This document shows, one piece after another, positions 10,376 through 38,166 of a stretch of DNA of 51,968 nucleotides. The notes below the pieces were generated by a model. It was not told the origin of the DNA and ran no database searches. It was given only the letters and a program-made list of their open reading frames with translations. The stretch's first letter is position 1, and each line of letters opens with the position of its first letter. The DNA comes from Candidatus Omnitrophota bacterium (GTDB lineage: Bacteria > Omnitrophota > Gorgyraeia > Zapsychrales > Fredricksoniimonadaceae), in the NCBI GenBank assembly GCA_030650275.1, contig JAUSEK010000007.1, forward strand, positions 1 through 51,968. The letters run 5' to 3'. The position numbers and the translations under genes are program-made.

Positions 10376-12442
10376 TTACCAGTTAAACTTCGCGTCCAGC
10401 CACATCGCATGCGCGCTGTAATTAGAGCCGCCTGCGTCCTTATTATCCGCGTAGTAATAATACGTATAATGCGGCTCGATCGTCAGGTCTTTTTTGGGCG
10501 ACCATTGAAGGCCCGCACCAATATCATAACGCTTAAAAGACGCGCCATAAAAATATCCTGATGATTGCAGATCGGCAAAATTATCCGCGATTGAATATTG
10601 ATACGTATTGGTAAAATTTAATTTCTCATCAATAACATAGCTTGATGAGGCCAAGAAGCTGTTCACATTCGATGTAAACCCGGGAAGTTGGGGCGATAAA
10701 TTTGATGCCGCCGGAGTTGACACCTTACTGGAATCTTGGGAAAAAGAAAGCGTCAAAAACCATGGGTCAATCGGCTGCAAGTTCAGGTCATAGGTGAATA
10801 CATTACTTAACATCTTTGACTTCTGCGCTACTTGATTTTCAAAACGCGGAAGATATATATTATCCGATAATTTATACCTAAAAATTGCTTCGATCTTAGA
10901 AAAAGGTTTCCAAGAAATACGCGCTCCCACATCATCGCTTTTTAGCCTCATATCATCTATGAACGCTGACTTGGAAAGAGAGCCGGGGGTATCGATGATA
11001 TCATCATAATCATTATCTTCCCATTTATGCTTATACTGCATGGTCATATTTAAAGTTTTAGACGGGATGATCCGTGCTCCTATTGTCCACACTGTTTTTG
11101 ATATATGCGTTAATGTTTCACGGGCTAATTGTTCTCCTGTTGCGGCCGCGGATTCACCCGCAATACTGTCCCGCTCTTCGGTCAACCAATTGCGCGTTTG
11201 TTCACCTTCTATTTCAGTATAAAGAGTGGTATGCGGGATCGCGTTATACCGCAAAGAAGCGCTCTCGCCTAACTTAAAAACTTTATTTTCCATAGTACTG
11301 ACATCGGTCGTATTAATGATACCGTTAGGTGCCGCGTTGGCATCATCATCGTGGGGGTATGTGGAGCTTCCCCGCTTGGATATCACTTCCGTCTTGAATT
11401 TTGAAATAAAATTCAATGTCGAAGTTATATTCGAAACATAGTTGCCTGTCCATATATGATCATTGTAAGACGTGTTCGATGTTGCATTAATAGCGCTTTT
11501 AGGATTTGTATAATTAAATAAAGTACCGTCCTTTTTATATTCCAGAATGTTCTCTAATTCACTGTTATCTAAATTGGCATAACGATACGCTAAAGATAGA
11601 TAATTTTTATCGTTGAGAAACCATTTATCACCCTTTAAGGTGGTTGTTAACAGGTCGGTTTGCGGGCTTTGCCATTGACGGCGCATTTTATTATCGGCGG
11701 TCAAAGCAGTGCCGGTTGTCAGCAATTTTTCTTCCCGTAATGAGTCTTCATGGAAATATGAGAATTTTTGCTCTCCGGCCAGTCTTACCCCAGCGATCTC
11801 TGTATTTCCTTTTAAAGACAATGTGTCCGTAACAGCTTCTATGTCTTGCCACGAAGGCCCAATATTACGCGTCGTGCCTGATTCCTTGACAGCTGTCCAT
11901 GCTAAACGGGACTTGCGGCCGTCTTTAGCGCTGCGTTCATACGAAATACTCATGCCCGGCTCAGATAAACTGCCGCTGCCAAGTTCAATAAAAAAATGCT
12001 GAATGTCCAGCTTTAAATCATCCTCTAATTTATTCAGCCTTAATGCCGTAAATGGCTGGTATACCCCGCCTTTATTATCATAATATTTACGGTACGATTG
12101 ATAATCCATCTTCAGATAACCAAAATTCTGTTCACTGATCAATAGATCAACGCCATTGTCATTCTCTTGCAGAATTGAATGTCCTTCAAATGACACTTCC
12201 TTTCCATTGACAGCGCGGTCAAAAGAAACATTCTTTAAGCCCGCCGTATATCCATCTTTTATCCAATTCAGTTGACGGAATTTGGCCGTATCGCCTTTTA
12301 CCGCGGCAAAATGGAACGGCATCATAGTGACATAAACTGGCGGTACCGCCTCCTCGGCATGGACCTCAAATACCGCCAAGCACATAAAAAGTAAACTTGT
12401 AAAAGAAATCTTTTTCCAATTTCTATACGATAAACTTTTCAT
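10376..12442 (-). CDS. MtrB/PioB-like outer-membrane beta-barrel porin
   Basis: 688 residues with a signal peptide cleaved near VHA-EE, then alternating polar and aromatic strands throughout, ending in the terminal aromatic residue (AKFNW) typical of outer-membrane barrels. Size, strand pattern and position beside a DmsE/MtrA-like multiheme cytochrome match the MtrB/PioB family, barrels that sheath a multiheme cytochrome and let electrons cross the outer membrane. No Cys is present in the mature part, so the N-terminal CXXC of Shewanella MtrB is missing. The gene is visibly more A+T-rich than its neighbours, as is common for barrels. A clear AGGAGG site precedes the ATG. Strand count and partner need modelling, but the family call is fairly secure. 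Confidence 0.82.
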   Translation of the reverse strand: MKSLSYRNWKKISFTSLLFMCLAVFEVHAEEAVPPVYVTMMPFHFAAVKGDTAKFRQLNWIKDGYTAGLKNVSFDRAVNGKEVSFEGHSILQENDNGVDLLISEQNFGYLKMDYQSYRKYYDNKGGVYQPFTALRLNKLEDDLKLDIQHFFIELGSGSLSEPGMSISYERSAKDGRKSRLAWTAVKESGTTRNIGPSWQDIEAVTDTLSLKGNTEIAGVRLAGEQKFSYFHEDSLREEKLLTTGTALTADNKMRRQWQSPQTDLLTTTLKGDKWFLNDKNYLSLAYRYANLDNSELENILEYKKDGTLFNYTNPKSAINATSNTSYNDHIWTGNYVSNITSTLNFISKFKTEVISKRGSSTYPHDDDANAAPNGIINTTDVSTMENKVFKLGESASLRYNAIPHTTLYTEIEGEQTRNWLTEERDSIAGESAAATGEQLARETLTHISKTVWTIGARIIPSKTLNMTMQYKHKWEDNDYDDIIDTPGSLSKSAFIDDMRLKSDDVGARISWKPFSKIEAIFRYKLSDNIYLPRFENQVAQKSKMLSNVFTYDLNLQPIDPWFLTLSFSQDSSKVSTPAASNLSPQLPGFTSNVNSFLASSSYVIDEKLNFTNTYQYSIADNFADLQSSGYFYGASFKRYDIGAGLQWSPKKDLTIEPHYTYYYYADNKDAGGSNYSAHAMWLDAKFNW

Positions 12443-12495
12443 TTAAGCCTCCTGGACTACATGACACGCTAAACTTTCATACAGCCCATCTTTAT

Positions 12496-13272
12496 CTAAT
12501 AACGCAAATGATCGTCAAAGTTTGAACCGTGTACTGCTGTGTGGCATCCCGCGCTAAAACAGGTCCCTTGCGTGAATCGGCCGCTATGGTTACTGGCGCC
12601 AATAGTGGGATAATTGATCTGTGTATGGCAGCGTAAACACAAGTTCAGGTCCCTGGAAACAAGCATTTTGTCATTAATGGAGCCATGGACTTTATGGCAT
12701 GTGGTACAGCCATCTCGAACAACTTCGTGCTCCCAAACGAAAGGCCCTTCTTTATCTTTGTGGCATTTAAAGCAAGCTTCATTCACATTATTCAATGTGG
12801 TCGCAGACCATGGTTTTACTTCTTCTCCATGGGGTGAATGGCAATCAACGCAAGACATCTTCCCCTCAAGAACGGGATGATGGTACGGAAGACGGAATTC
12901 CGCTTTCTTATCGGTGTGGCAGGTAAAGCAAACTTCCGGGTTCTTTCGGGGGTTTATAATATTATTTTTGCCGCCGGAGGCATCCGCGTGGACACTGCCC
13001 GGGCCATGGCACATTTCGCAACCCTGGGCCGCGCCATCAGCTTTTTCATTGGTAATGCGCGCATGGGTGGAAAGCTTGAACTCCCTGCCTTCTTTGTCAT
13101 GGCAGGTCATGCAGGTTTCCGCGCCCACATACGTGGCGGTTGTTAACATCTCGCGCACTTTTTCCTCTGATGCCTGGGCAGGCCTATGGGTGAGCATCAC
13201 GCCTCCCAGAATCATCCCCAGAAAGATCAAGGTTGCTGGGATCATATTTGATCGAGCATCTTTGGCCCTCAT
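12496..13272 (-). CDS. Periplasmic octaheme cytochrome, MtrA/DmsE-like
   Basis: 258 residues. The signal peptide ends near AQA-SE. Seven CXXCH sites (CMTCH, CEMCH, CFTCH, CVDCH, CFKCH, CTTCH, CLRCH) are followed by one CX4CH site (CFSAGCH). The ending GCHTAVHGSNFDDHLRY is a hallmark of the DmsE/MtrA family, whose usual members have ten hemes, so this one is two short. In characterised systems such cytochromes sit in or next to an MtrB-type barrel and relay electrons between periplasm and cell exterior. The barrel gene follows after 53 bases. A GGGAGGG ribosome site lies just upstream of the ATG, 12 bases after the hemA-cytochrome fusion gene. Confidence 0.9.
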   Translation of the reverse strand: MRAKDARSNMIPATLIFLGMILGGVMLTHRPAQASEEKVREMLTTATYVGAETCMTCHDKEGREFKLSTHARITNEKADGAAQGCEMCHGPGSVHADASGGKNNIINPRKNPEVCFTCHTDKKAEFRLPYHHPVLEGKMSCVDCHSPHGEEVKPWSATTLNNVNEACFKCHKDKEGPFVWEHEVVRDGCTTCHKVHGSINDKMLVSRDLNLCLRCHTQINYPTIGASNHSGRFTQGTCFSAGCHTAVHGSNFDDHLRY

Positions 13273-13284
13273 AAACCCTCCCGG

Positions 13285-14613
13285 TTATTTTTCTTCTTCC
13301 GCCGCTGGCTTGGCATTTTTCTCAAAATCATCAAATGAACCCAATTGCTTAAAGGTCTCGGCCGTGGGGTGGGCCTCGAGTTTCATGGCTGCTTTGCCGT
13401 AATCATTCCATTCATGCAGCCCTTCATCTTTTTTGGGCTTCTCGGTCTCATGACAATTGATGCATTTGGGCTTGGCCTCCGGGAACGTTTCCTTGTAGGC
13501 CTTGATCTGTTTCAAATTCGCGTGGGCCGTGGACATTCCCAACACAAAAATAATCCCGATCATCAAAGCCGCGAGCACTTGCCTGCTGTCCACCCGCCGG
13601 ACCTTTAAAATGGCTTTATAAAATTCTTCTATTTTCCGGGTGATCAACTGCTCTACTTCCTTCACCGCGTCCTGGCGTTTTTGCACATTCTGTTCAATAA
13701 CCTTATCCAAATCATCAAGGCTGATCAGCTTGACCCCGGCGATCTGTGCCACTTGAGGGTCAACATTACGCGGCATGGAGATATCAATGCAAATCAGAGG
13801 ACTGGTGCGCGATTTGACCACATTTTCCATGAGATCCCTGGTGACCAAATAATGGGGGGCCCCGGAAGAACAGATGCAGACATCCACCTTGGCTAGGACC
13901 TCTTTGAGGTCCCAAAAAGGAACGCTCTGTGCTTGAAATTCTTCGGCGATCACAGCGGCTTTTTCTTCCGTGCGGTTCATCAAATACACGTGTTTTGTTT
14001 TTTTCTGACGCAGATAATTCAAGGCCAGGCATCCCATTTTCCCGGAGCCGATCACAAGGACATTTTTGCCTTCCAGAGACCCCAGAAGATTTTGCGCCAT
14101 GGAAACGGCCGCAGCACTCACAGACACGCCGCCGAAATCAATGTGCGTCTCCTGCCGGGCTTTTTTGCCTGTTTCCATCACAAAATTTGTCAGGATGTTG
14201 AGGGCCCTGTCCATCATCCCATTTTGACGTGAAAGACCGATCGCCTCCTTGATCTGCCCCAGGATCTGTTTTTCCCCCAGGATCAGGGAATCCAGCCCGC
14301 AGGCAACCCTTAAAAAATGTTCCGCGGCCCCGGGCCCCTCATGCACATAAAACATCTTCTGAAGGCCCTGGGTCTGCGGCTGATGTTTGATGGAAAATAA
14401 TTTTTGAATGATCTCTGAAGGCGGGTGGCCGTCCACCACCGTGGCGTAGATCTCGCAGCGGTTGCAGGTGGAAAGAATGACGGCGGCCGCAACCGAAGGG
14501 TCGCTCTTGAATTCAGAGATCAAAAGCTCCCTTTCCAATGGGGACAAATGAAATTTTTCCCGTATTTCAATTGGGGACGTCCTGTGATTGATCCCTACCG
14601 CCAATATCTTCAT
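13285..14613 (-). CDS. hemA: Glutamyl-tRNA reductase fused to a membrane-anchored monoheme cytochrome c domain (hemA copy 1)
   Basis: 442 residues. Residues 1-335 are a glutamyl-tRNA reductase, the first enzyme of C5 heme synthesis: SPIEIREKF, the catalytic Cys50 in LSTCNR, GLDSLILGEKQILGQ near 107-120 and the NADPH-binding VLVIGSGKMG around 186-194. The C-terminal dimerisation helices seen in standard enzymes (about 420 residues) are missing. Instead the frame runs into a hydrophobic helix at about 346-363 ending in an AHA signal-cleavage-like site (362-366), then a small domain with one heme site CINCH (384-388). An internal GTG at 13593 has AAAGG 8 bases upstream, so the cytochrome (about 102 residues) may also be made separately. 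A TAA in another frame at 13605-13607 means a small indel could also create the fusion. Paralogue at 37084-38166. Confidence 0.85.
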   Translation of the reverse strand: MKILAVGINHRTSPIEIREKFHLSPLERELLISEFKSDPSVAAAVILSTCNRCEIYATVVDGHPPSEIIQKLFSIKHQPQTQGLQKMFYVHEGPGAAEHFLRVACGLDSLILGEKQILGQIKEAIGLSRQNGMMDRALNILTNFVMETGKKARQETHIDFGGVSVSAAAVSMAQNLLGSLEGKNVLVIGSGKMGCLALNYLRQKKTKHVYLMNRTEEKAAVIAEEFQAQSVPFWDLKEVLAKVDVCICSSGAPHYLVTRDLMENVVKSRTSPLICIDISMPRNVDPQVAQIAGVKLISLDDLDKVIEQNVQKRQDAVKEVEQLITRKIEEFYKAILKVRRVDSRQVLAALMIGIIFVLGMSTAHANLKQIKAYKETFPEAKPKCINCHETEKPKKDEGLHEWNDYGKAAMKLEAHPTAETFKQLGSFDDFEKNAKPAAEEEK

Positions 14614-14631: not shown

Positions 14632-15009
14632 TTATTTTAAAATAGCCGGGTCCAGGATCTTGCTGATGCTGGGGATCAGTTTGTCGCACAGATCGCTTTT
14701 GCTGATAAATGCTTTAATAAGATTTTGGTTGTCGAGGGGTTCTATGTCTTTGATGTCAAACATCGTCAACATGATAATGGAACAATTCGGCACGCTGGCC
14801 TTGATCTGAGTTGCCGCCTCCATCCCATTCATCCCCCGGAGCCAGAAATCCATCAGGACAATTTGCGGTTTGATCCGTTTGGCCAACAGGACCCCCTCTT
14901 CACCGGAGGAGGCCTCCAATAGATCGGCTTTGACGTTGCTCACTTCCAGGAAATGGCGCACCGCCTGGCGAAAATCTTTATGGTCTTCCACGATCAAGAT
15001 GGTTAACAT
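14632..15009 (-). CDS. Single-domain response regulator (receiver only)
   Basis: About 125 residues, a CheY-like receiver with no output domain. ILIVEDHKDF carries the acidic pocket, VLMDFWLRGMNG the phospho-acceptor Asp, and MLTMF the conserved Thr position. The expected C-terminal Lys pocket is in AFISKSD. The frame is open to 15078, but ATG at 15007-15009 starts exactly at the domain, so I use it; no strong ribosome site is visible there. It lies between the NarL-type regulator and hemA copy 1 on the same strand, so it probably belongs to the same two-component pathway. Whether it competes for phosphate from the PAS kinase or passes the signal on is unknown. Confidence 0.85.
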   Translation of the reverse strand: MLTILIVEDHKDFRQAVRHFLEVSNVKADLLEASSGEEGVLLAKRIKPQIVLMDFWLRGMNGMEAATQIKASVPNCSIIMLTMFDIKDIEPLDNQNLIKAFISKSDLCDKLIPSISKILDPAILK

Positions 15010-15087
15010 AAGGATATTATAAAATTTGAGAAGAGCTTGTTCTATAAGATAAACTACCCAAGAAATGCGTAGTAACACGCAGAAAAG

Positions 15088-15738
15088 CTAAATTAACCCC
15101 CTGGCTAAGGCATATTTCACAAGAGCGGCCGCGGTTTTAAGGCCCAGTTTATGGATGAGGTGACTGCGGTGGGTCTCAACGGTGCGGATACTGATCCCAA
15201 GACGGCCGGCAATATTTTTGTTGGCCTGGCCCTGGGCGATGCAGCGCAGGATCTCCTTCTCCCGCGGCGTCAGGATCTCCAGCGATGGAAAATCCCCCTC
15301 TTCCATGGACCGTACGAACTGTTCAGCGATCAAATTGGAAATGCCGGGAGATATGAATGTCTTGCCCTTCATGACCATTTTAACAGCGAGGACCAGCTGA
15401 TCAAAAGCGCTGTCCTTAAGCACATACCCCCTGGCCCCCAAGGCCATGGCATGTTTAAAATGTTCGGAATCTTTTTGCATGGTCAAGATCAGGGACCTTG
15501 TCTTGGGAAAACGGCGCCGGATCTCCTTGAGCGTCATCAGCCCGTCCATATTGGGCATGGACAGGTCCAGCACGACACAATCGGCTTTGAAGTGGGCGCC
15601 CCCAAGTTTTTCCAGCAGGTCCTCCCCGTCACGGGCCTGGGCCACGACCTTAAAATCGGGTTCTTTTTCCAGGAGTTCTTTAAGTCCGGCCCTTAACATT
15701 TCATGATCATCGGCCAAGACAATACGGACAGGGGCCAT
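15088..15738 (-). CDS. NarL/FixJ-family response regulator
   Basis: 216 residues. An N-terminal receiver domain (RIVLADDHEMLRAGL, phospho-Asp in CVVLDLSMPNMDG) is followed by a C-terminal LuxR-type helix-turn-helix (LTPREKEILRCIAQGQANKNIAGRLGISIRTVETHRSHL in outline). The start overlaps the stop of the PAS kinase by one base (TGATG), so the two form a classical pair. It is probably the transcription factor for the downstream electron-conduit and heme genes, possibly including its own promoter at 16848-16875. That assignment is inference from gene order. The signal could be redox, oxygen or an electron acceptor. Confidence 0.93.
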   Translation of the reverse strand: MAPVRIVLADDHEMLRAGLKELLEKEPDFKVVAQARDGEDLLEKLGGAHFKADCVVLDLSMPNMDGLMTLKEIRRRFPKTRSLILTMQKDSEHFKHAMALGARGYVLKDSAFDQLVLAVKMVMKGKTFISPGISNLIAEQFVRSMEEGDFPSLEILTPREKEILRCIAQGQANKNIAGRLGISIRTVETHRSHLIHKLGLKTAAALVKYALARGLI

Positions 15739-16820
15739 CAGGTCTGCCCTCCGGGCCTACGGCCCGATAGGGCCGGAGGCCTCCGGCAAGGGATGTCCGC
15801 GACAATGACCGTTCCTTTTTTAGGCCGGGAGAGGATCTTGATCTCTCCTCCCAAAAGGCCGGTCCTCTCGCGCATGGTGATCAGTCCCAGGCCCTTGGAT
15901 TTTTCTTCCGGAACAAAACCGCATCCATTGTCTTGAACGGTGATCTTTAAGCGGCCGTTGACGACACGCAAGGCGACCTTGACCCTGGTCGCCCTGGCAT
16001 ATTTTAAAATATTGGTGGAGGCCTCCTGGACAATGCGGAATATATTGATGGGGTCCGCTTGAAAACACAGGCCCTCCAGAGGACTGTGGTAAAAAGTGAT
16101 CTTGACCTTCCCTCCGTGGTTAATTTCGCCGAACATCAATTTTAACGCGGTCGTCAATCCCAGGGCCTCCAAGGTTGAAGGCCGCAAACGCATGGCCAAA
16201 TTGCGCGAGTGATCAATGATGGTGTCCAAATATTCAAGGATCTTACGGTGTTCTTTTGAAGGCCTGGCCGCTTTCTCCTGCAGCCACGCGGATTGGATGA
16301 TCATTTTGAGCGTCGCCAGCGACTGTCCCAGATCATCATGCAGGTCACGGGCGATGCGGTCGCATTCCCGCTCCTGTGCTTGAATGATGCGCTGGGGCAG
16401 GGCTTTGATCTCATCTTCCATGTGTTTGCGCCGGGTGATCTCATTGCGGATGGAAACGTATTGGTAGGGCTTGCCCTTGTTATTTAAAAAAGGGACAATG
16501 GTCGTGTCCACCCAATAAATGCTGCCGTCCTTGGCGCGGTTGCGGATCTCGCCCTTCCACACCTTGCCCCGGGCGATGGTACGCCAAAGATCGCGGATAA
16601 ATTCTTTAGGATGATAACCGGAATTGATGATGCGGTGGTCCTGGCCTAACAGTTCTTCACGGGAATATTTGGAGATCCGGCAAAATTGATCGTTGGCGTA
16701 AATGATCTTCCCCTTCTGATCGGTGATGGCCACGATCGAAGAGGTGTCCAGCGCGAACTTGATATCGGCCAGTTCTTTGAGTGTCTTTTGTAATGTGTTG
16801 TCTTTTGTGTCCATGCCCAT
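15738..16820 (-). CDS. PAS-domain sensor histidine kinase (NarX/DegS-type)
   Basis: 360 residues, no membrane segment, so cytoplasmic. A PAS domain spans about 20-135. The HisKA_3 dimerisation/phosphotransfer domain has its H-box RIARDLHDDLGQ with His161. The HATPase domain has the N-box IVQEASTNILKYA near 263-275, G1 DNGCGF (297-302) and G2 GLGLITMRER (310-319). Soluble PAS kinases of this class often sense oxygen, redox or a bound cofactor, but no heme or Fe-S motif is evident. The last 15 or so residues (RRPPALSGRRPGGQT) are encoded by a G+C-rich palindromic repeat and lie beyond the conserved fold. An AAGGG ribosome site precedes the ATG, and a good promoter lies at 16848-16875. Confidence 0.92.
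   Translation of the reverse strand: MGMDTKDNTLQKTLKELADIKFALDTSSIVAITDQKGKIIYANDQFCRISKYSREELLGQDHRIINSGYHPKEFIRDLWRTIARGKVWKGEIRNRAKDGSIYWVDTTIVPFLNNKGKPYQYVSIRNEITRRKHMEDEIKALPQRIIQAQERECDRIARDLHDDLGQSLATLKMIIQSAWLQEKAARPSKEHRKILEYLDTIIDHSRNLAMRLRPSTLEALGLTTALKLMFGEINHGGKVKITFYHSPLEGLCFQADPINIFRIVQEASTNILKYARATRVKVALRVVNGRLKITVQDNGCGFVPEEKSKGLGLITMRERTGLLGGEIKILSRPKKGTVIVADIPCRRPPALSGRRPGGQT
15741..15786. repeat. G+C-rich palindromic repeat overlapping the kinase 3' end
   Basis: Two overlapping hairpins are visible: six-base arms at 15752-15757 and 15761-15766, and six-base arms at 15760-15765 and 15770-15775, followed by another GGCC-rich stretch. The segment encodes the last residues of the sensor kinase and ends next to its stop codon, and differs in composition from the rest of the gene. 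It looks like an inserted repeat rather than ancestral coding sequence. Confidence 0.6.
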
Positions 16821-20869: not shown

Positions 20870-22042
20870 TTAAGGATGGACCAAACAGCCGGGACATTTG
20901 ACCGGGTCCTGGTCGGAGAGATAAATGTTATAGTTGGGGTTCCCGTCGGCTTGCAGGAAGCCCGCCGCCCCCTTCTCCACGCGGAAAATGGCATGGTCCA
21001 CCAGGGTGTAATTGCCCGGGACCTCCAGGGCAAAGTCAACCACGGTGGCACCGCCGGCCGGAACTAATGTCGTCTGCACGCTGCGCGCCGGCGGACTGAT
21101 CAGGTCCGCTTCACGATAAACATGGTCAAAGATCTCTCCGATCACGTGAAAAGAAGAGATCAGATTAGGTCCGCCATTGCCGAAGAAGATCCTCACCCGG
21201 TCGCCGACCTTGGCGTTCAATACCCCTTCATTGGTCAATGACCCCACCCGTCCGTTGAAGACCACGAACATCGGATGCTCGTCCAGTCCTTTTTGATGCG
21301 AAAACTTCAACAGCACCGCGTCTCCCTGCTTGCCTTGGGCAAGTTCATCGCCCCACACGCTCTTGTCTTCTTGACCATCCATATGCGCATGGTCCATCTC
21401 AACGGGCTTCGGTTCCCCATCAGGGTTTTGTGCGTAGATCTCGCTTTGCATGACATAGAACTCTTTGTCCACCTTAGGCAAACCATTGGCCGGTTCAACC
21501 AGAATAAGACCATACATCCCGTTGGCAATATGGTCCATCACCGGCGGGGCCGCGCAATGATAGACATAAAGCCCCGGGGCCATCATTTTAAACCAGCTGA
21601 TACGTTTTTCACCGGGGACAACCGTTGTCACCGGGGCCCCGCCGCCCGGCCCTGTCACCGCGTGGAAATCAATATTGTGGGGCATGCCGGTGGTGTCTTT
21701 GCTTTCATGGTGCACCTCTAAAATATCACCCACGCGCACACGGATAAAGGGGCCGGGCACATGGCCGTCAAATGTCCAGAATTCATAATTGAGCCCTTTG
21801 TTAACTTCCATGACCTGACGCATGGACGTCATGTGCACTTCCACCACCGCGGGTACTCGACGGGTGATCGGCGCAGGCACTTGCGGGGCATAGATCAATG
21901 GCTGTTTCACGCGCAATTTAGGAAAAGAGACCGCGTCTTTGGCATGCACGATCATGCCGGAGACAAACGCGCTGATCACGAATAATAAAACCAAAAGCCC
22001 CTGAAATTTCTGGATGACCTTGCCTTCTTGAGATTTATCCAT
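20870..22042 (-). CDS. nirK: Copper-containing nitrite reductase (NO-forming)
   Basis: 390 residues. Reduces nitrite to nitric oxide in the periplasm. A signal or anchor segment lies at about 16-34. Copper ligands can be read: His122 (type 1) and the catalytic Asp125 and His127 (type 2) in MPHNIDFHA; His162 (type 2) and Cys163 (type 1) in VYHCAAPPV; His171 and Met176 (type 1) in DHIANGMYG; a C-terminal type 2 His in VDHAIFR. The SSFHVIGEIFD segment is of the class II NirK type. An odd C-terminal extension ends CPGCLVHP, a CXXC that is not a heme site. A GAGGATA ribosome site precedes the ATG, 14 bases after the octaheme gene, so electrons probably come from that cytochrome. Confidence 0.94.
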   Translation of the reverse strand: MDKSQEGKVIQKFQGLLVLLFVISAFVSGMIVHAKDAVSFPKLRVKQPLIYAPQVPAPITRRVPAVVEVHMTSMRQVMEVNKGLNYEFWTFDGHVPGPFIRVRVGDILEVHHESKDTTGMPHNIDFHAVTGPGGGAPVTTVVPGEKRISWFKMMAPGLYVYHCAAPPVMDHIANGMYGLILVEPANGLPKVDKEFYVMQSEIYAQNPDGEPKPVEMDHAHMDGQEDKSVWGDELAQGKQGDAVLLKFSHQKGLDEHPMFVVFNGRVGSLTNEGVLNAKVGDRVRIFFGNGGPNLISSFHVIGEIFDHVYREADLISPPARSVQTTLVPAGGATVVDFALEVPGNYTLVDHAIFRVEKGAAGFLQADGNPNYNIYLSDQDPVKCPGCLVHP

Positions 22043-22056
22043 AGTATCCTCGTTGA

Positions 22057-24984
22057 TCAGGGTCCTGCTTGGGTTGACGGGGCGGGATCGCTGGAAATGG
22101 TCAGCAGATAATCACGCAGGGCCTTGATCTGCCTGCGTTCATCCCCGTTGAGGATGTCCGCAGGCCCGGACTCATCAAAGTTTTTCGGGTCAAAATACGT
22201 CGGCATCTTGGTGCCGGGCAAAAGGTCCGCCGGATCGGTCAGCCATTGGATGATCCAGTCGGGTTTCAAACGCTTGGCGGTCAAGGCGAAATTCGGCGCC
22301 CAGCTGTCCGCGGAACCGCCGGGCATCTGGTCCCCCACGATATGGCATTGGGCACAGCCGAAATAATCCTTAGAGAATAGTTTGCCGGCGGCCTCAAACT
22401 CTTCCTTGCTCATCTGCGGATGATAAATGTCGGTGAACGGGAATTCCTGGTCATCAAGATAATTGAAATATTTGACCAAAGAATTGATCTGGCCGGCGTG
22501 GAAACTGTAGGTCGGCATGCGCACATGCAGCCACGGCCGTATGGGTGTGGGGCCATGCAGGAATTCGAACAGCCACTGGGCCTGCACTTTTTGGCCTTCC
22601 CCGACCAGATCCGGCGGCGAAAAACTGCGGACCACGGATCGGGCATCACTGGTCTCCTTGCCCTGATAGGCCACCAGCCAATCGACCACGGTGCTTTGAA
22701 TGGCCCCGCCTTCCCCTTCAATGACATGACAGCCCTGGCAATTGAACTGGCGCACGATCCTTTGTCCCTCATTGATGAACGCCGCTTTCACCCCCTGATT
22801 CGGCATTTTCGACGGATCAGGCCGGTCTTTGACAAAACCCATCAAAGCCGTAGTGATCGCCTGTGCTTCTTCTTCAGTGAAATTAAAATTGGGCATTTTG
22901 AGTTTTTCCAGGGCCTCTTTCACCCTGCCCTTGTCAAAAATACGGGGATCAAGCATTTTCTGTTTGAACCATGCCTCTTTGCTGTGTTCAATGTCCGCAA
23001 AACCGAAATCCAGCCGTTCAATGCTCTTACTGCCCTCTTCGGTCAATTCGGTACCGATGGGCTTTTCATTCTCAAACCCGGGGATGTTATGGCATGAAAA
23101 ACATCCGTATTCGCGGACGAGACGCCTGCCGGCGAACGTGAGTTTTTCATCCGTTGACATGGCCCTGATCCTGGCCTTGGAACTTTCAACGGTTTCCGAT
23201 TTTTTAAGGAGATCAAGAACAATGGTGTCCAGGGTCTGTTCATCCACCGGCACAATGGGCTCGGCCGCGGCCAACGAAACATCCTGCGCCAAATACGCGG
23301 CGATATCCGAGGCCTCCGTATCGCTCAAGCGCATGTTCGGCATTTTGCTTTCCGGATGATAATGCGGGGGGTTTTTAAGCCAGTCAAACAGCCACGCCCT
23401 GGACGTCTTGCTGCCTAAACCGACGAGGTTGGGCCCGAATTCACGTTGCAGTTGGCCGCGATCACGTTTGACATCTGTCTTTTGGGGTCCTACCTGATGA
23501 CAGGCCATGCATCCTAAAGATGAAACCAATTCTTTTCCTTTGACCGGGTCCCCATCCTGCGGCGCGTCCTGTGCCTTGAATGGTTTGCTGTTGGCGAACA
23601 GGAATGCCACGATCGCGTGAATCTCCTGTTGGTTCCTTTTAATGGAAGCCGGGTCATTGGTATTGCTTTGGTCAAAATACGACGGCATCCAGGTGTTGGG
23701 ACGCAGGGCCTTGGGGTTTGCGATCCATTGATAGGCCCATTCCATGGTGGTCTTGGACGCCAAAAATTCCAAACTCGGACCTGTTTTAGGCCAACCCTTG
23801 TATTTCTTGATGGTGTGACATGCGTAACAGCCGGCGCGTTCGATCAAATTCAGGCCAAAATTCAGGATCGGGGCGCCTTTGATGACGGTCTGGTCCTGAT
23901 GGCATTTGAAACACGATGCCTGTGTGGACTGCGCGGCCAGCATGGGCTGGTCCCAATGATGCGATTCCTTCCAGCCGTATTTCTTTTGCCATTCTTTTTT
24001 CTGTTCTTCATTGCGCGGCGTATGCGCGGCGGAAACAAAATCCGTGGCCCTGCCCCGCCCCATATGGCAGGTGGTGCAGGCGAACGAGTCCATCGGATGC
24101 GGGGAGTTCTTGTCTACGAACATTTCCAGGTCCGGATGTGCGCGAAACGGCTGGCCCACGTCCTTAAAATCAGGATTGTCTATCCCTAAATGGCAGGTGG
24201 TGCAGCGGTCCACCCGGGGGACTTTCATGAAATTCATATCTTCAGGGATATCTTTAAGGACGATCTGGCGGATCTTGTAATTCGGGTTGGCCAATTCAAC
24301 GAACGGCATATCGCGCACGGCTTCGGCCAATTGATCGGCCGGCGACATTTCCTGCAGATCAATGCGTTTCAATTTGCGCTGGAGGATCTCTGCTTTCTTG
24401 GCGACGGCCAAACGTTTTTTATCCAGGTCCCTGGCGTCTTTTTCGATATTTTGAATGTCGTTTGTTCTCGCCTTGATCACATCATCCTGGGCTTCGATCT
24501 TTAAGCGCAACTGTTCCATTCTTGCATCCAGGATGTCTAACTGTATTTTTAATTCCGGGGCCCCCTCTTGCCCCTTGCCCGCGGCTTGTTCATACCTATA
24601 CTTGAGCGCATCAAGATCGGCCTTGACGAATTGCGACTGCTGGACATAAAGTTCTTTGACCGTTTGAGCGTTGGTGATCCGCTGGCGGGACGAAACAACG
24701 GCCAGGGCCTGGGACTTTGACCCGTCCTGGACGGTTTTCAGTTCTTTAAGGACCTTTTGATAGTCCTCATTTTTGGCCAGCTCATTGTTCTGGGCGTCCA
24801 GTTTGACCCGGGTTTTTTCAACTTCCAGGGCCCTGAACTGGCGCTGATACGTTTTCCATTCACGGGCATAATCCTTGGCAAAAACACCGAACAAAGACAC
24901 CAAAAGCACCAGGGTCGCTATGGCAAAGATCTTCTGCAGTTTTTTCGGGTCGTAATGCGATTCAGGGGGCAACGGCGGGGGCAT
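22057..24984 (-). CDS. Membrane-anchored octaheme c-type cytochrome with coiled-coil stalk, complex 2
   Basis: 975 residues. A membrane helix lies near residues 17-36, followed by a long charged coiled coil (about 42-212), then eight CXXCH sites: CTTCH (from 261), CTTCH, CFKCH, CYACH, CMACH, CFSCH, CQGCH and CAQCH. Later hemes sit in class-I-like cytochrome c modules, each followed by a Met in a KMP- or RMP-type loop (for example SKMPNMR, TKMPTYF). The layout suggests a stalk holding a chain of heme domains out into the periplasm. It starts just after the subunit IV gene with no clear ribosome site, so it is probably translated by coupling. It likely carries electrons from Rieske/cytochrome b complex 2 to NirK. 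I know no named family with this exact layout. Confidence 0.9.
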   Translation of the reverse strand: MPPPLPPESHYDPKKLQKIFAIATLVLLVSLFGVFAKDYAREWKTYQRQFRALEVEKTRVKLDAQNNELAKNEDYQKVLKELKTVQDGSKSQALAVVSSRQRITNAQTVKELYVQQSQFVKADLDALKYRYEQAAGKGQEGAPELKIQLDILDARMEQLRLKIEAQDDVIKARTNDIQNIEKDARDLDKKRLAVAKKAEILQRKLKRIDLQEMSPADQLAEAVRDMPFVELANPNYKIRQIVLKDIPEDMNFMKVPRVDRCTTCHLGIDNPDFKDVGQPFRAHPDLEMFVDKNSPHPMDSFACTTCHMGRGRATDFVSAAHTPRNEEQKKEWQKKYGWKESHHWDQPMLAAQSTQASCFKCHQDQTVIKGAPILNFGLNLIERAGCYACHTIKKYKGWPKTGPSLEFLASKTTMEWAYQWIANPKALRPNTWMPSYFDQSNTNDPASIKRNQQEIHAIVAFLFANSKPFKAQDAPQDGDPVKGKELVSSLGCMACHQVGPQKTDVKRDRGQLQREFGPNLVGLGSKTSRAWLFDWLKNPPHYHPESKMPNMRLSDTEASDIAAYLAQDVSLAAAEPIVPVDEQTLDTIVLDLLKKSETVESSKARIRAMSTDEKLTFAGRRLVREYGCFSCHNIPGFENEKPIGTELTEEGSKSIERLDFGFADIEHSKEAWFKQKMLDPRIFDKGRVKEALEKLKMPNFNFTEEEAQAITTALMGFVKDRPDPSKMPNQGVKAAFINEGQRIVRQFNCQGCHVIEGEGGAIQSTVVDWLVAYQGKETSDARSVVRSFSPPDLVGEGQKVQAQWLFEFLHGPTPIRPWLHVRMPTYSFHAGQINSLVKYFNYLDDQEFPFTDIYHPQMSKEEFEAAGKLFSKDYFGCAQCHIVGDQMPGGSADSWAPNFALTAKRLKPDWIIQWLTDPADLLPGTKMPTYFDPKNFDESGPADILNGDERRQIKALRDYLLTISSDPAPSTQAGP

Positions 24985-24985
24985 A

Positions 24986-26104
24986 TTAAATGTTAAAAAA
25001 ACATTCCGGTATGGCGACGATATATTTGATGTTGAATAACCAGCGCAGATACATCTTGATGGGCAAACTCAAGGCCATCAGGAAGAACACAACGAAAATA
25101 CTGTAACGGACGACACCGACGCGTTGGTAAAGGTCTTTTAAGACCGTTTTGGCCAGGATCGCGGGCAGAAGCCCGAAATACGCGAATAGGGTCAGGAAAC
25201 CTGGAGCTTCCCTTAACAGGACGTTGGACGGCATCCCCTGTTTAAGGCCGATCATGTAGACCAGTTCCGAAAAATTGATATTATTCAAGGCAACGACCTT
25301 GTCATGGTCCCAATATTCGAAGGGCCCGAAGAAATTCCAGTTGGGACCGCGCAAGAACGTACCGGTGAGGATCAAAAACACCCACAGCACCAGCCAGAAA
25401 AGCATGAACGTATTGATGGCGAACTTGCGGTCCTGATAGGTGTAATACCCCAGGCCTTTGCGGTTCGTGTCAATATAAGGAACGCACATGAGGCCCAGCA
25501 CAATGACGGTCGGGAAAACAACACCCGCGATCCAGGGGTCGAAATACACGAGCATTTCCTGCAATCCCAGGAAATACCACGGGGCTTTGGAAGGGTTCGG
25601 CGACACCGTCGGGTTGGCCGGCTGTTCCAAGGGTGCTTGCAGGAACATGGCCCATACGGCCAACAAAGCGGACGTGCAGACCAGGGCGATGAACTCGATG
25701 TGGACCAAGTCCGGAAAAACCAGGACTTTTTCCCGGCTTTCAGCCCATTCCTTGGGTTTTCCGCCGGCTTTGAGGGCCGCGTCATTTTCCATGGCCTGTT
25801 TCATGGCAAACCACAGGAAGAAAACCACCACAAAAATGAGCGCGGCAATGGGCACATTGTCCGGCTTAAGGACGATGAGGCGGAAATTTTCATCGGTCAG
25901 GCCGAACGCGAATACCAAAAACAGCAGAGAAAACAGGACCATGCCGCCTTTTTTGGTCCAGAGGCGGTCCACACCCAGGAGATCATGGATCTTTTGGAGA
26001 AATTTGAACGGCGGAAAAAGGATCAAGTATCCGATAAGGACGATATTGAATAAATATTTCGGCGCGGCAATGATATTGATAAAATGTTTGATCTCTTCCA
26101 TCAT
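24986..26104 (-). CDS. Cytochrome b subunit IV-like protein (split cytochrome b, C-terminal half, enlarged)
   Basis: 372 residues, about eight membrane helices. Contains the quinol-site segment PSKAPWYFLGLQEMLVYFD, where the usual PEWY is APWY, a variant seen in split bc complexes. Standard subunit IV is about 160 residues, so this one carries an extra membrane domain at the C-terminus and a short extra N-terminal part. The start is ATG at 26102-26104, sharing one base with the cytochrome b6 stop (TAATG); the open frame continues upstream to 26524 only as a shadow of cytochrome b6. It forms the quinol-oxidising core together with the b6 and Rieske genes just upstream. Confidence 0.88.
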   Translation of the reverse strand: MMEEIKHFINIIAAPKYLFNIVLIGYLILFPPFKFLQKIHDLLGVDRLWTKKGGMVLFSLLFLVFAFGLTDENFRLIVLKPDNVPIAALIFVVVFFLWFAMKQAMENDAALKAGGKPKEWAESREKVLVFPDLVHIEFIALVCTSALLAVWAMFLQAPLEQPANPTVSPNPSKAPWYFLGLQEMLVYFDPWIAGVVFPTVIVLGLMCVPYIDTNRKGLGYYTYQDRKFAINTFMLFWLVLWVFLILTGTFLRGPNWNFFGPFEYWDHDKVVALNNINFSELVYMIGLKQGMPSNVLLREAPGFLTLFAYFGLLPAILAKTVLKDLYQRVGVVRYSIFVVFFLMALSLPIKMYLRWLFNIKYIVAIPECFFNI

Positions 26105-26901
26105 TATGTCGGTCCTGAAATACCGCCGTCCTTGCGGATGCGCCAGAAATGCACGATCATGAAGATCATGATGATAAACGGCAAACCGATGCAATGCAAA
26201 ACGTAAAAACGCAGCAACGCGCTTTCCCCCACGAAACGCCCGCCCAGCAAAGCAAAACGCGCGTCGCTGACAGAGGTGACGAAATTGACGTCGCCGATGC
26301 TCAATAAAGAAGACCCGGGGCCGCCCATGCCCAAAAACGGTGTGGCGCCGGCCATGTTGGAACCGACGGTGATGGCCCAGATGGCCAGCTGGTCCCACGG
26401 CAAAAGATAGCCGGTGAAGCTCATCAGCATGGTCAAAACAAGCAGAATAACGCCGACGACCCAGTTGAATTCCCGCGGCGGCTTGTAGGAACCGGTCATG
26501 AACACCCGGAACATGTGCAGCCATACGGTGATGACCATCAGATGCGCGCCCCAGCGGTGGATCTCACGCATGATGCCAAGCGGCACCTGCTGTCCCAGGT
26601 CCAGCACATCGCCGTACGCGTATTCGACCGTCGGACGGTAATAAAACATGAGCAGGATGCCGGTGACCGTCAGGACCAGGAAAATGAAAAAGGACAGTCC
26701 TCCCATACACCAGGTGTAACGCACCTTGACCGCGTGTTTGGGCAGGCGCACCGGATGCAGGTGCAAAAACACGCTGTTGAGCATGATCATCATGCGCTGG
26801 CGGTGTGTTGTCACCGGAACGCCCGTGCGGAAAATGGAACGCCACACCACGGTCTCTTTGATCTTGTCCATCAAGCTTTTTTTATTTGGGTCTGCGGTCA
26901 T
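26104..26901 (-). CDS. Cytochrome b6-like protein (split cytochrome b, N-terminal half), complex 2
   Basis: 265 residues with four core membrane helices. Two heme-ligating His pairs: one separated by 13 residues in REIHRWGAH to VWLHMFR, and one separated by 14 residues in YVLHCIG to IVHFWR. These are the b6 spacings. [14 protein letters not shown] and [13 protein letters not shown] are family hallmarks. The start ATG at 26899-26901 overlaps the Rieske stop by four bases (ATGA); the open frame continues to 27081 only as a shadow. It forms one integrated complex with the Rieske protein and subunit IV-like protein. Confidence 0.94.
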
Positions 26902-27419
26902 ACGGCTATGAATGAATCGGGGTCGGTCCATTCTCCTTTTTCCTGTTGGAATTTTTTGGTCTTGTCCACGATGATCTCCCCTTCGTCGGAAAGCGCGATC
27001 TTGAACCTTTCCAAAGGCCGCGGGGCCGGACCTTCGAAATTGATCCCTGTTGTGTAAAACCCGCTGCCGTGGCAGGGGCATTTGAATTTAGTTTCAGAAG
27101 GCATCCAGTTGGGGGTACATCCCAAATGGGTGCAAACGGTGGAAAGGGCGTAAATTTTTTCGTCATCGCGCACGATCCAAACACCATACTGGTCTTTGAA
27201 CTGTTCAGAGACCTGCCCGACTTCGTATTCATCCGGGTATCCGGCGCCAAAGATCTGCACCGGTTCAAAAAGCACGTTGGGAAATAAGAACCGCGTGACC
27301 ATGGAGCCGTAACCGGCGACCACGGCGGCAAACGCCGACCAGCCGACCACCGACCATTTGATGAAGGAGCGGCGGTCCATGTCGTTACCGGCCGTGCTGA
27401 ATTTTTGTTCCTCTGCCAT
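26898..27419 (-). CDS. Rieske iron-sulfur protein, complex 2
   Basis: 173 residues. Tat-type N-terminus (MDRRSFIKW) and a single anchor helix at about 24-42. The [2Fe-2S] motifs are CTHLGC and CPCHGSGF, with the proline-rich loop [10 protein letters not shown] following, as in cytochrome bc1/b6f Rieske proteins. Its start shares one base with the stop of the HEAT-repeat gene (TAATG). It differs clearly from the Rieske protein of complex 1 (151 residues or fewer), so the two complexes are not recent duplicates. Confidence 0.95.
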
Positions 27420-28294
27420 TACGATCGACCTTTACGTTCCAAAACCTTACCCGCCAGGGCGCGCACATTCATGTTTTTGTCCGAAGCAAAAAGACCTTTC
27501 AAAACAGCGTCAATATCAGGATCATCCCATCCGGCCGTGGCTTCAATAGCGACCGACACGATCCTGGTCTGCTCCTGGGCGTCCACTTGGGGAAAGCCCG
27601 CCAGATAATCACGGTCCAGGAGTTTTAACACCATGGGTTTGGCGGAAATATCCCCCATTTTTGCCAGGGCAATGGCCGCGTCCCAGGTGATATTGGGCTG
27701 GGGGTCATTGAGCATGGGCCTCAACGCCGGGAGGGATCCCGCGTCCGCTATATTCCCCAACGCAATGACTGTGGCCAAACGGATACGGGGATCGTCATCC
27801 TGCAGATACGTCAAAAGATCGCCTGTCGCTGTTTTGCTTTTTAGTATACCAAGCGCCGTAATGATCGCGTATAAATTCTCATCTTTTTCCTCCTTGATAT
27901 TTTCAAGCAGGACGGGAACAAAACGGCTGTCTCCCGTGCGGGCCATGGCCAGCGCCAGATATTGCCGCACGCGGTCATCATCGTGTTTGGAAGCGGCGAA
28001 AACAGACGTCATCCCGTCAAAGAATTTCCGGTCCACGGGGACTTCGCTTTTGTTGACAAGAACGCGGGACAATTCAAACGCGGCCTGCCAGCGCTTGGTC
28101 GATCCCCCTTCTTTGATATCCCGCAGATAATCATAAACGCTGTGTTTCTCCATCGTGAGGATGCGCACCGCGGCAAACAACAGGACACTGAAAACCGCGA
28201 TCAGGAAAGGAACGACGAAGAATGAGTGGACAATAACGCCGAAGATAGATTTCTTATCTTGCTCTTGTGCAGGGACTTGTGGGTCGTACGGCAT
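27419..28294 (-). CDS. Membrane-anchored HEAT-repeat protein of the bc complex 2 operon
   Basis: 291 residues. One membrane helix at about 20-48, then a periplasmic or cytoplasmic array of helical repeats of PBS-lyase/HEAT type (DDRVRQYLALAMARTGDSRFVPVLLE, DPRIRLATVIALGNIADAGSLPALRPML and similar). Such repeats make protein-binding scaffolds. It is the first gene of the operon and is translationally coupled to the Rieske gene. An assembly or structural role in complex 2 is likely from position, with no enzymatic motif visible. I could not find a convincing promoter in the short gap (28295-28342) upstream. Confidence 0.85.
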   Translation of the reverse strand: MPYDPQVPAQEQDKKSIFGVIVHSFFVVPFLIAVFSVLLFAAVRILTMEKHSVYDYLRDIKEGGSTKRWQAAFELSRVLVNKSEVPVDRKFFDGMTSVFAASKHDDDRVRQYLALAMARTGDSRFVPVLLENIKEEKDENLYAIITALGILKSKTATGDLLTYLQDDDPRIRLATVIALGNIADAGSLPALRPMLNDPQPNITWDAAIALAKMGDISAKPMVLKLLDRDYLAGFPQVDAQEQTRIVSVAIEATAGWDDPDIDAVLKGLFASDKNMNVRALAGKVLERKGRS

Positions 28295-37050: not shown

Positions 37051-37116
37051 GATCCCTCGCTTTCGCTCGGGATTAATTCGGACTTATGACTTATGTCGCT
37101 CTGCTCCATAAGTCAT
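37051..37116. repeat. Palindromic repeat overlapping the 3' end of hemA copy 2
   Basis: Two units. A GATCCCTCGC ... CTCGGGAT unit at 37051-37073 is nearly the same as the one beside atpE. A perfect hairpin with 10-base arms (ATGACTTATG at 37086-37095 and its complement at 37107-37116) lies inside the last eleven codons of hemA copy 2, whose TAA stop is at 37084-37086. The C-terminal residues MTYGAERHKS are thus encoded by the repeat. Confidence 0.7.
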
Positions 37117-38166
37117 GTCCTCATTAAAAAAATCGGAACTGTTGAGGGTTTTGAGTTTGGCGATCTTGGCGTCAAACTCAAGGATCTTCCGGCGGATGAT
37201 CCCTTCAACCTCGGCCATGGCCTGGGCGCGTTTTTTCATGCCGGCGTCCACCACCTGGTCCAGATCATCAATGGAGCGCAGGTGCGCTCCGGGGATGTCC
37301 GCGACAGCAGGATCAATGTTGCGCGGCATGGAAATGTCAATGAATAAAAGCGGCCTGCCGGGACGCGCGGCCATGACCTTGGCAATTTGTTCCTTGTCCA
37401 GAATGTAATGCGGCGCGCCCACGGAGCAAATGCACAGGTCCGTCTCGGAAAGGATATCCTTAATATCAAAAAAAGACGCCGCGGTCCCGTTGTATTGGAC
37501 AGCCAGGGCCTCGGCTTTCTCGCCCGTGCGGTTCATCAAATACATTTTAGCCAAACCCTTATTGCGCAGATGGGCGAGGGCCATTTCCCCCATTTTTCCG
37601 GCGCCGATGACCAGAACAGACCTGCCGGACAAGGACCCCAGCATGCTTTGGGCCATTTCGATCGCGGCCCAACTGACGGAAGAACCGCCATGGCTGATGG
37701 CGGTTTCATGGTGCGCTTTTTTGCCCGCGCACACGGCGATATTGGTCAAAATATTAAAATAACGCGACAGGGTGCCTATTTGGCGGGCCCGGTCCACGGC
37801 CATTTTGACCTGGCCCAGGATCTGTCTTTCCCCTAAAACCAGGGAATCCAGGCCGCAAGCCACCTTGAAGAGATGTTCACAGGCCCGGCGTGATTCATGG
37901 ACATAAATATACGGGGTGTGATCAAAGTCCAGGCGGATCTTTTTGACCTTCGCGATCATGCCGATGACAAAGGCGCTGTCAACACAAGCGCTCCCCTTTT
38001 TTAAATAGACCTCAACGCGGTTGCAGGTGGAGAGGACAAAACATTCGCTGACCAGGGGGTGGTTCTTGAGCGTTGTTAAAAACAGGTCCTGCTGCTGCGG
38101 GTTTAAATAAAATCTCTCACGGATGGGAATGGGCGCTGTTTTGTGGTTCAATCCTATGACGAGCAT
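37084..38166 (-). CDS. hemA: Glutamyl-tRNA reductase, copy 2
   Basis: 360 residues. Same reaction as copy 1: reduces glutamyl-tRNA to glutamate-1-semialdehyde. Catalytic Cys in FVLSTCNRVEVY near residue 48, GLDSLVLGERQILGQVK near 105, NADPH loop SVLVIGAGKMG and FIDISMPRNIDP are conserved. The sequence ends shortly after EGIIRRKILEF, so the C-terminal dimerisation helices of the 420-residue enzyme are missing, as in copy 1. The last 10 residues come from a palindromic repeat. The two copies are clearly diverged, so the duplication is old. It is the first gene after a promoter at 38176-38204 and leads into hemH and the atp genes. Confidence 0.94.
   Translation of the reverse strand: MLVIGLNHKTAPIPIRERFYLNPQQQDLFLTTLKNHPLVSECFVLSTCNRVEVYLKKGSACVDSAFVIGMIAKVKKIRLDFDHTPYIYVHESRRACEHLFKVACGLDSLVLGERQILGQVKMAVDRARQIGTLSRYFNILTNIAVCAGKKAHHETAISHGGSSVSWAAIEMAQSMLGSLSGRSVLVIGAGKMGEMALAHLRNKGLAKMYLMNRTGEKAEALAVQYNGTAASFFDIKDILSETDLCICSVGAPHYILDKEQIAKVMAARPGRPLLFIDISMPRNIDPAVADIPGAHLRSIDDLDQVVDAGMKKRAQAMAEVEGIIRRKILEFDAKIAKLKTLNSSDFFNEDMTYGAERHKS

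Follow-up and report, generated by a model that had tools for sequence, protein, structure and literature searches.

The 51,968-nucleotide stretch of Candidatus Omnitrophota DNA analysed here (the window) carries at 13285-14613, on the minus strand, one uninterrupted 442-codon frame in which a glutamyl-tRNA reductase (GluTR, HemA) runs on into a helix resembling a signal sequence and then a monoheme domain with a CINCH motif. A preliminary description of the window had claimed such a single frame of HemA, signal anchor and cytochrome, and its continuity is confirmed. It is a genuine-looking, lineage-specific fusion within a conserved heme and electron-export operon, structurally unusual and evolutionarily shallow. 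The fusion, probably an accident of a single lineage, points to two wider facts, namely a short GluTR that appears to be class-wide and an Mtr-type operon repeatedly headed by hemA. The relevant features are as follows.

13285-14613, minus strand: fused open reading frame, 442 aa, HemA1 (GluTR) plus signal anchor plus monoheme cytochrome (open frame)
14146-14598, minus strand: GluTR catalytic N-domain, residues 6-156, C50 and R52 invariant (Pfam PF05201, GlutR_N, E 7.9e-44; alignment)
13699-14100, minus strand: NADPH-binding Rossmann domain, residues 172-305 (Pfam PF01488, E 1.1e-37)
13600-13674, minus strand: truncated spinal helix, residues 314-338, the last HemA-homologous stretch (AlphaFold helix 314-376; alignment; PF00745 absent)
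13591-13599, minus strand: join RRV, residues 339-341, with the internal GTG at 13593-13591; relatives have the hemA tail, a stop and a spacer here (sequence comparison)
13519-13593, minus strand: signal-peptide-like segment, residues 341-365, h-region VLAALMIGIIFVLGM, AHA/N site (aligns with the signal peptides of relatives' cytochromes; A365 invariant; hydropathy)
13288-13518, minus strand: monoheme cytochrome domain, residues 366-442, with CINCH at 384-388 (13450-13464) and an invariant H400 (alignment; no Pfam or NCBIfam family)
12496-13272, minus strand: MtrA/DmsE-like multiheme cytochrome, following the fused gene in the operon (PDB 6r2q_A, E 1e-37; TIGR03508 178.2 bits, below the cut-off of 192.2)
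10376-12442, minus strand: MtrB-like outer-membrane barrel (AlphaFold β-barrel; best Foldseek match 6r2q_B, TM 0.61)
37084-38166, minus strand: HemA2, the housekeeping GluTR paralogue, not fused and likewise lacking the dimerisation domain (domain search; tree)

The HemA part comprises residues 1-340. By its domains and by its score on the NCBIfam equivalog model TIGR01035 (361.6 bits against a cut-off of 209.55) the fused protein is a glutamyl-tRNA reductase, and reductase activity on Glu-tRNA is predicted. The proposed catalytic residue C50 is borne out by the HemA alignment, in which it is invariant together with R52. The TIGR01035 match ends at residue 342, equivalent to position 340 of the 416-position model, and PF00745 (GlutR_dimer) is absent from the fused protein and from its genome. 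The claimed loss of the dimerisation helices therefore holds as an absence but not as a mark of the fusion, as all HemAs examined from the same class are without them. PF00745 was found in none of the 55 nearest genomes, and in a sample of 237 genomes of the phylum it occurs in 30, all of other classes. GlutR_N is present in 113 of the same 237, many of them in the fusion's own class, in which no sampled genome has PF00745 and GlutR_N frames mostly measure near 330-380 aa. As the absence is class-wide, it precedes the fusion and provides no argument for it; rather, the whole Omnitrophota class appears to use a GluTR without the dimerisation domain. Such short forms are not unique, because NCBIfam holds another short GluTR model, NF001909 with 338 positions, which we take to be chlamydial. 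A literature search found no paper on a HemA-cytochrome fusion or on a short GluTR.

From the GTG at 13593 onward, which is codon 341, the frame aligns with the entire length of small secreted monoheme cytochromes, including their start, signal peptide, CxxCH motif and second histidine (H400), and the heme-binding motif is invariant in nine homologues. An export signal precedes the heme site, as judged from alignment and hydropathy rather than by a dedicated predictor: the hydrophobic segment spans residues 346-360, with a core no less hydrophobic than the signal-peptide cores of the relatives, and is followed by AHA at 363-365. In the AlphaFold model a single helix (residues 314-376) runs from the HemA core into this segment, and the cytochrome part is modelled with a pLDDT below 50. 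No named cytochrome family was matched by the tail domain in Pfam, NCBIfam or the PDB, and the one PDB match from a cytochrome-profile search is a chance match.

The fused gene is followed by genes for an MtrA-like multiheme cytochrome and an MtrB-like barrel. The molecule name on the 6r2q_A match of the former looks mislabelled, because Foldseek lists 6r2q as an Mtr complex. The barrel is modelled with a pLDDT of 76.6; its fold match to 6r2q_B is at 13% identity, and a search of the protein with PF11854 gave no match. The order hemA, small cytochrome, MtrA-like cytochrome and barrel is kept in eight related Candidatus Omnitrophota MAGs (G023, which is JADFYF010000001, G014, G030, G010, G018, G020, G049 and G068), and in two more (G004 and G015) hemA is separated from the cytochromes by ResB/CcsA genes. 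In several genera of Omnitrophota a hemA paralogue stands first in this conserved porin-cytochrome operon of the Mtr type (window 10376-14613; loci L149 and L153-L159). In the distant genome G210 (L170, 2051-3247) the small cytochrome and the MtrA-like cytochrome share one frame, the start of which is overlapped by hemA; fusions and overlaps thus recur in the compact hemA-cytochrome block. A dedicated hemA paralogue repeatedly heading an Mtr-type electron-export operon would tie the supply of heme to the building of a heme-hungry conduit. Directly upstream of hemA1 (14632-16820) lie a PAS histidine kinase and two response regulators, in the same order as in G030 and G018. Farther away, a likely copper nitrite-reductase-like protein is encoded at 20870-22042 beside genes for a large multi-CxxCH cytochrome, cytochrome b, a Rieske protein and HEAT repeats (22057-28294), all of these identified by eye only.

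The fused form itself is confined to the window genome. When genome contigs were searched with the single protein as query, no relative was confirmed; an alignment used as query gave named matches, with G023 among them as Candidatus Omnitrophota. In an order-wide survey of 81 genomes, 52 of them with a match, a single HemA-cytochrome frame was found only in the window genome. Among the 117 HemA frames inspected, which come from the loci retrieved and include the fused frame twice as it is covered by two loci, CXXCH occurs in the fused one only, so that the fusion remains without a second case, as had been supposed, and a conserved fusion is ruled out. The same junction was found in none of the related genomes, and all eight relatives with this gene order have, after hemA, a cytochrome gene that stands apart and begins at a start codon of its own. 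In the hemA tree, the fused hemA1 groups with those of G023, the closest relative (HemA 70% identical), and G030 with support of 100/99; both sisters are unfused, which makes the fusion a derived and local one. The junction is without a close replicate because the same-genus MAG G001 lacks the whole block of hemA1, MtrA-like gene and sensor kinase. The distance from the conserved K337 codon to the cytochrome start is 12 nt in the window, 72 nt in G023 and 26 nt in G010, where hemA and the cytochrome gene share 13 nt in different frames. Most likely, the fusion is lineage-specific, recent and local, a short deletion having probably taken the hemA1 tail, the stop and the spacer.

The separate genes of all eight relatives, and the out-of-frame overlap in G010, could also mean that the long frame is an artefact of sequence or assembly, or an inactivating frameshift, in which an indel of one base masks the stop of hemA and the two genes are really separate or overlapping. 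A TAA does lie out of frame at 13607-13605. However, HemA homology, which had been placed up to about residue 335, holds in frame and reaches farther, past this TAA to K337-V338 (13605-13600). The room for an indel, already described as little, is hence even smaller, about 9 nt, and contains no homopolymer longer than 3. Some 33 kb of the window's coding sequence that has homologues was screened with the relatives' proteins, and no frameshift was detected, at a sensitivity of 32 of 40 artificial indels recovered (80%), from which an upper bound near 1e-4 per nt was calculated. With no frameshift in 33 kb and only about 9 nt left, an indel is improbable, and this explanation is considered very unlikely. 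A less remote, though still unlikely, addition to the long fusion would be that some ribosomes initiate at GTG 13593 and produce a normal secreted cytochrome. In the alignment this codon falls on the start of the relatives' separate cytochromes, it has AAAGG 8 nt upstream, and equally weak Shine-Dalgarno sequences precede many true starts in the window. Both the GTG and the TAA lie where the preliminary description had put them, but the GTG does not stand out as a start: its pairing energy with the anti-Shine-Dalgarno sequence is -3.4 kcal/mol, which 31.5% of the window's in-frame internal start codons equal or beat, and the AAAG upstream belongs to a hemA lysine codon region that is found in relatives too. 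This background comparison rules out a strong internal start; separate initiation is possible, not indicated.

The reading that we consider probable as a whole starts from hemA1 as an operon-dedicated GluTR paralogue, of a kind that often heads the Mtr-type operon in this Omnitrophota order. A deletion of about 60 nt relative to the closest relative, its size and place being estimated from relatives diverged to 70% identity, would have removed the last codons of hemA1, the stop and the spacer and joined the enzyme in frame to the cytochrome signal peptide. As no stop precedes the signal segment, every finished HemA1 should carry it. The chain would then insert so that the enzyme stays inside and the cytochrome comes to lie outside, an orientation favoured by the RR before and the short hydrophobic core after the join. 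Signal peptidase I would probably cut at AHA/N, releasing a free, normal periplasmic cytochrome that keeps its electron-carrier role and leaving HemA1 tethered by a membrane-embedded tail. This tether may be tolerated or even mildly useful with soluble HemA2 present. In the tree, hemA2 falls into a separate clade with the hemA2 genes of G001 and G023, and hemL, the partner of hemA, is present in the genome; HemA2 and HemL give a soluble ALA route, so that the tether of HemA1 need not be harmful.

Far less credible is the proposal that the fusion stays uncleaved and acts as a heme sensor, with HemA1 anchored at the membrane and the heme loading of the periplasmic tail tuning ALA synthesis. The predicted helix does pass without a break from the HemA core to the membrane segment, and membrane control of GluTR through FLU is known from plants (PMC4726326). 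On the other hand, FLU acts on the dimerisation domain (PMC4726326), which the fused protein does not have, and a likely cleavage site separates the two parts. The idea of a heme-sensing tail finds no support in the relatives either, as the closest of them encode the cytochrome in an ordinary gene of its own and the fused form is not conserved. It is highly improbable that an uncleaved tail holds GluTR at the cytoplasmic membrane, so that heme synthesis would begin where heme is exported and cytochrome c matures, and that the heme occupancy of the tail affects activity.

Compared with canonical GluTR (HemA, TIGR01035), the fused protein shares the catalytic and NADPH domains, C50/R52 and a score over the equivalog cut-off; it differs in the absence of GlutR_dimer, a class-wide trait, and in carrying a signal anchor and a cytochrome at its C-terminus instead. 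Its tail resembles the separate small monoheme cytochromes of Omnitrophota hemA-Mtr operons in gene order, signal peptide, CxxCH and invariant second histidine, at 40-51% identity, and is unlike them in being fused in frame to hemA, in the window genome only. Beside the fusion, the genes for MtrA-like and MtrB-like proteins recall the Mtr conduit (MtrCAB, PDB 6r2q), from which the Omnitrophota system is set apart by a barrel that is divergent (fold match at 13% identity, no PF11854) and by an operon headed by hemA. Plant FLU likewise brings GluTR to the membrane, but as a separate protein that binds the GluTR dimerisation domain (PMC4726326), which fused HemA1 is without. With the fused gene, nature provides a test of whether GluTR functions when tethered by its C-terminus. 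A parallel for the join exists in fbcH, the Bradyrhizobium cytochrome b/c1 polyprotein, in which a c-type cytochrome is linked through its own signal sequence to the protein ahead of it. In both cases cleavage by signal peptidase is expected at the cytochrome signal sequence; the first partner in fbcH belongs, as a membrane subunit, to the same complex as the cytochrome, whereas in the HemA1 fusion it is a cytosolic biosynthetic enzyme.
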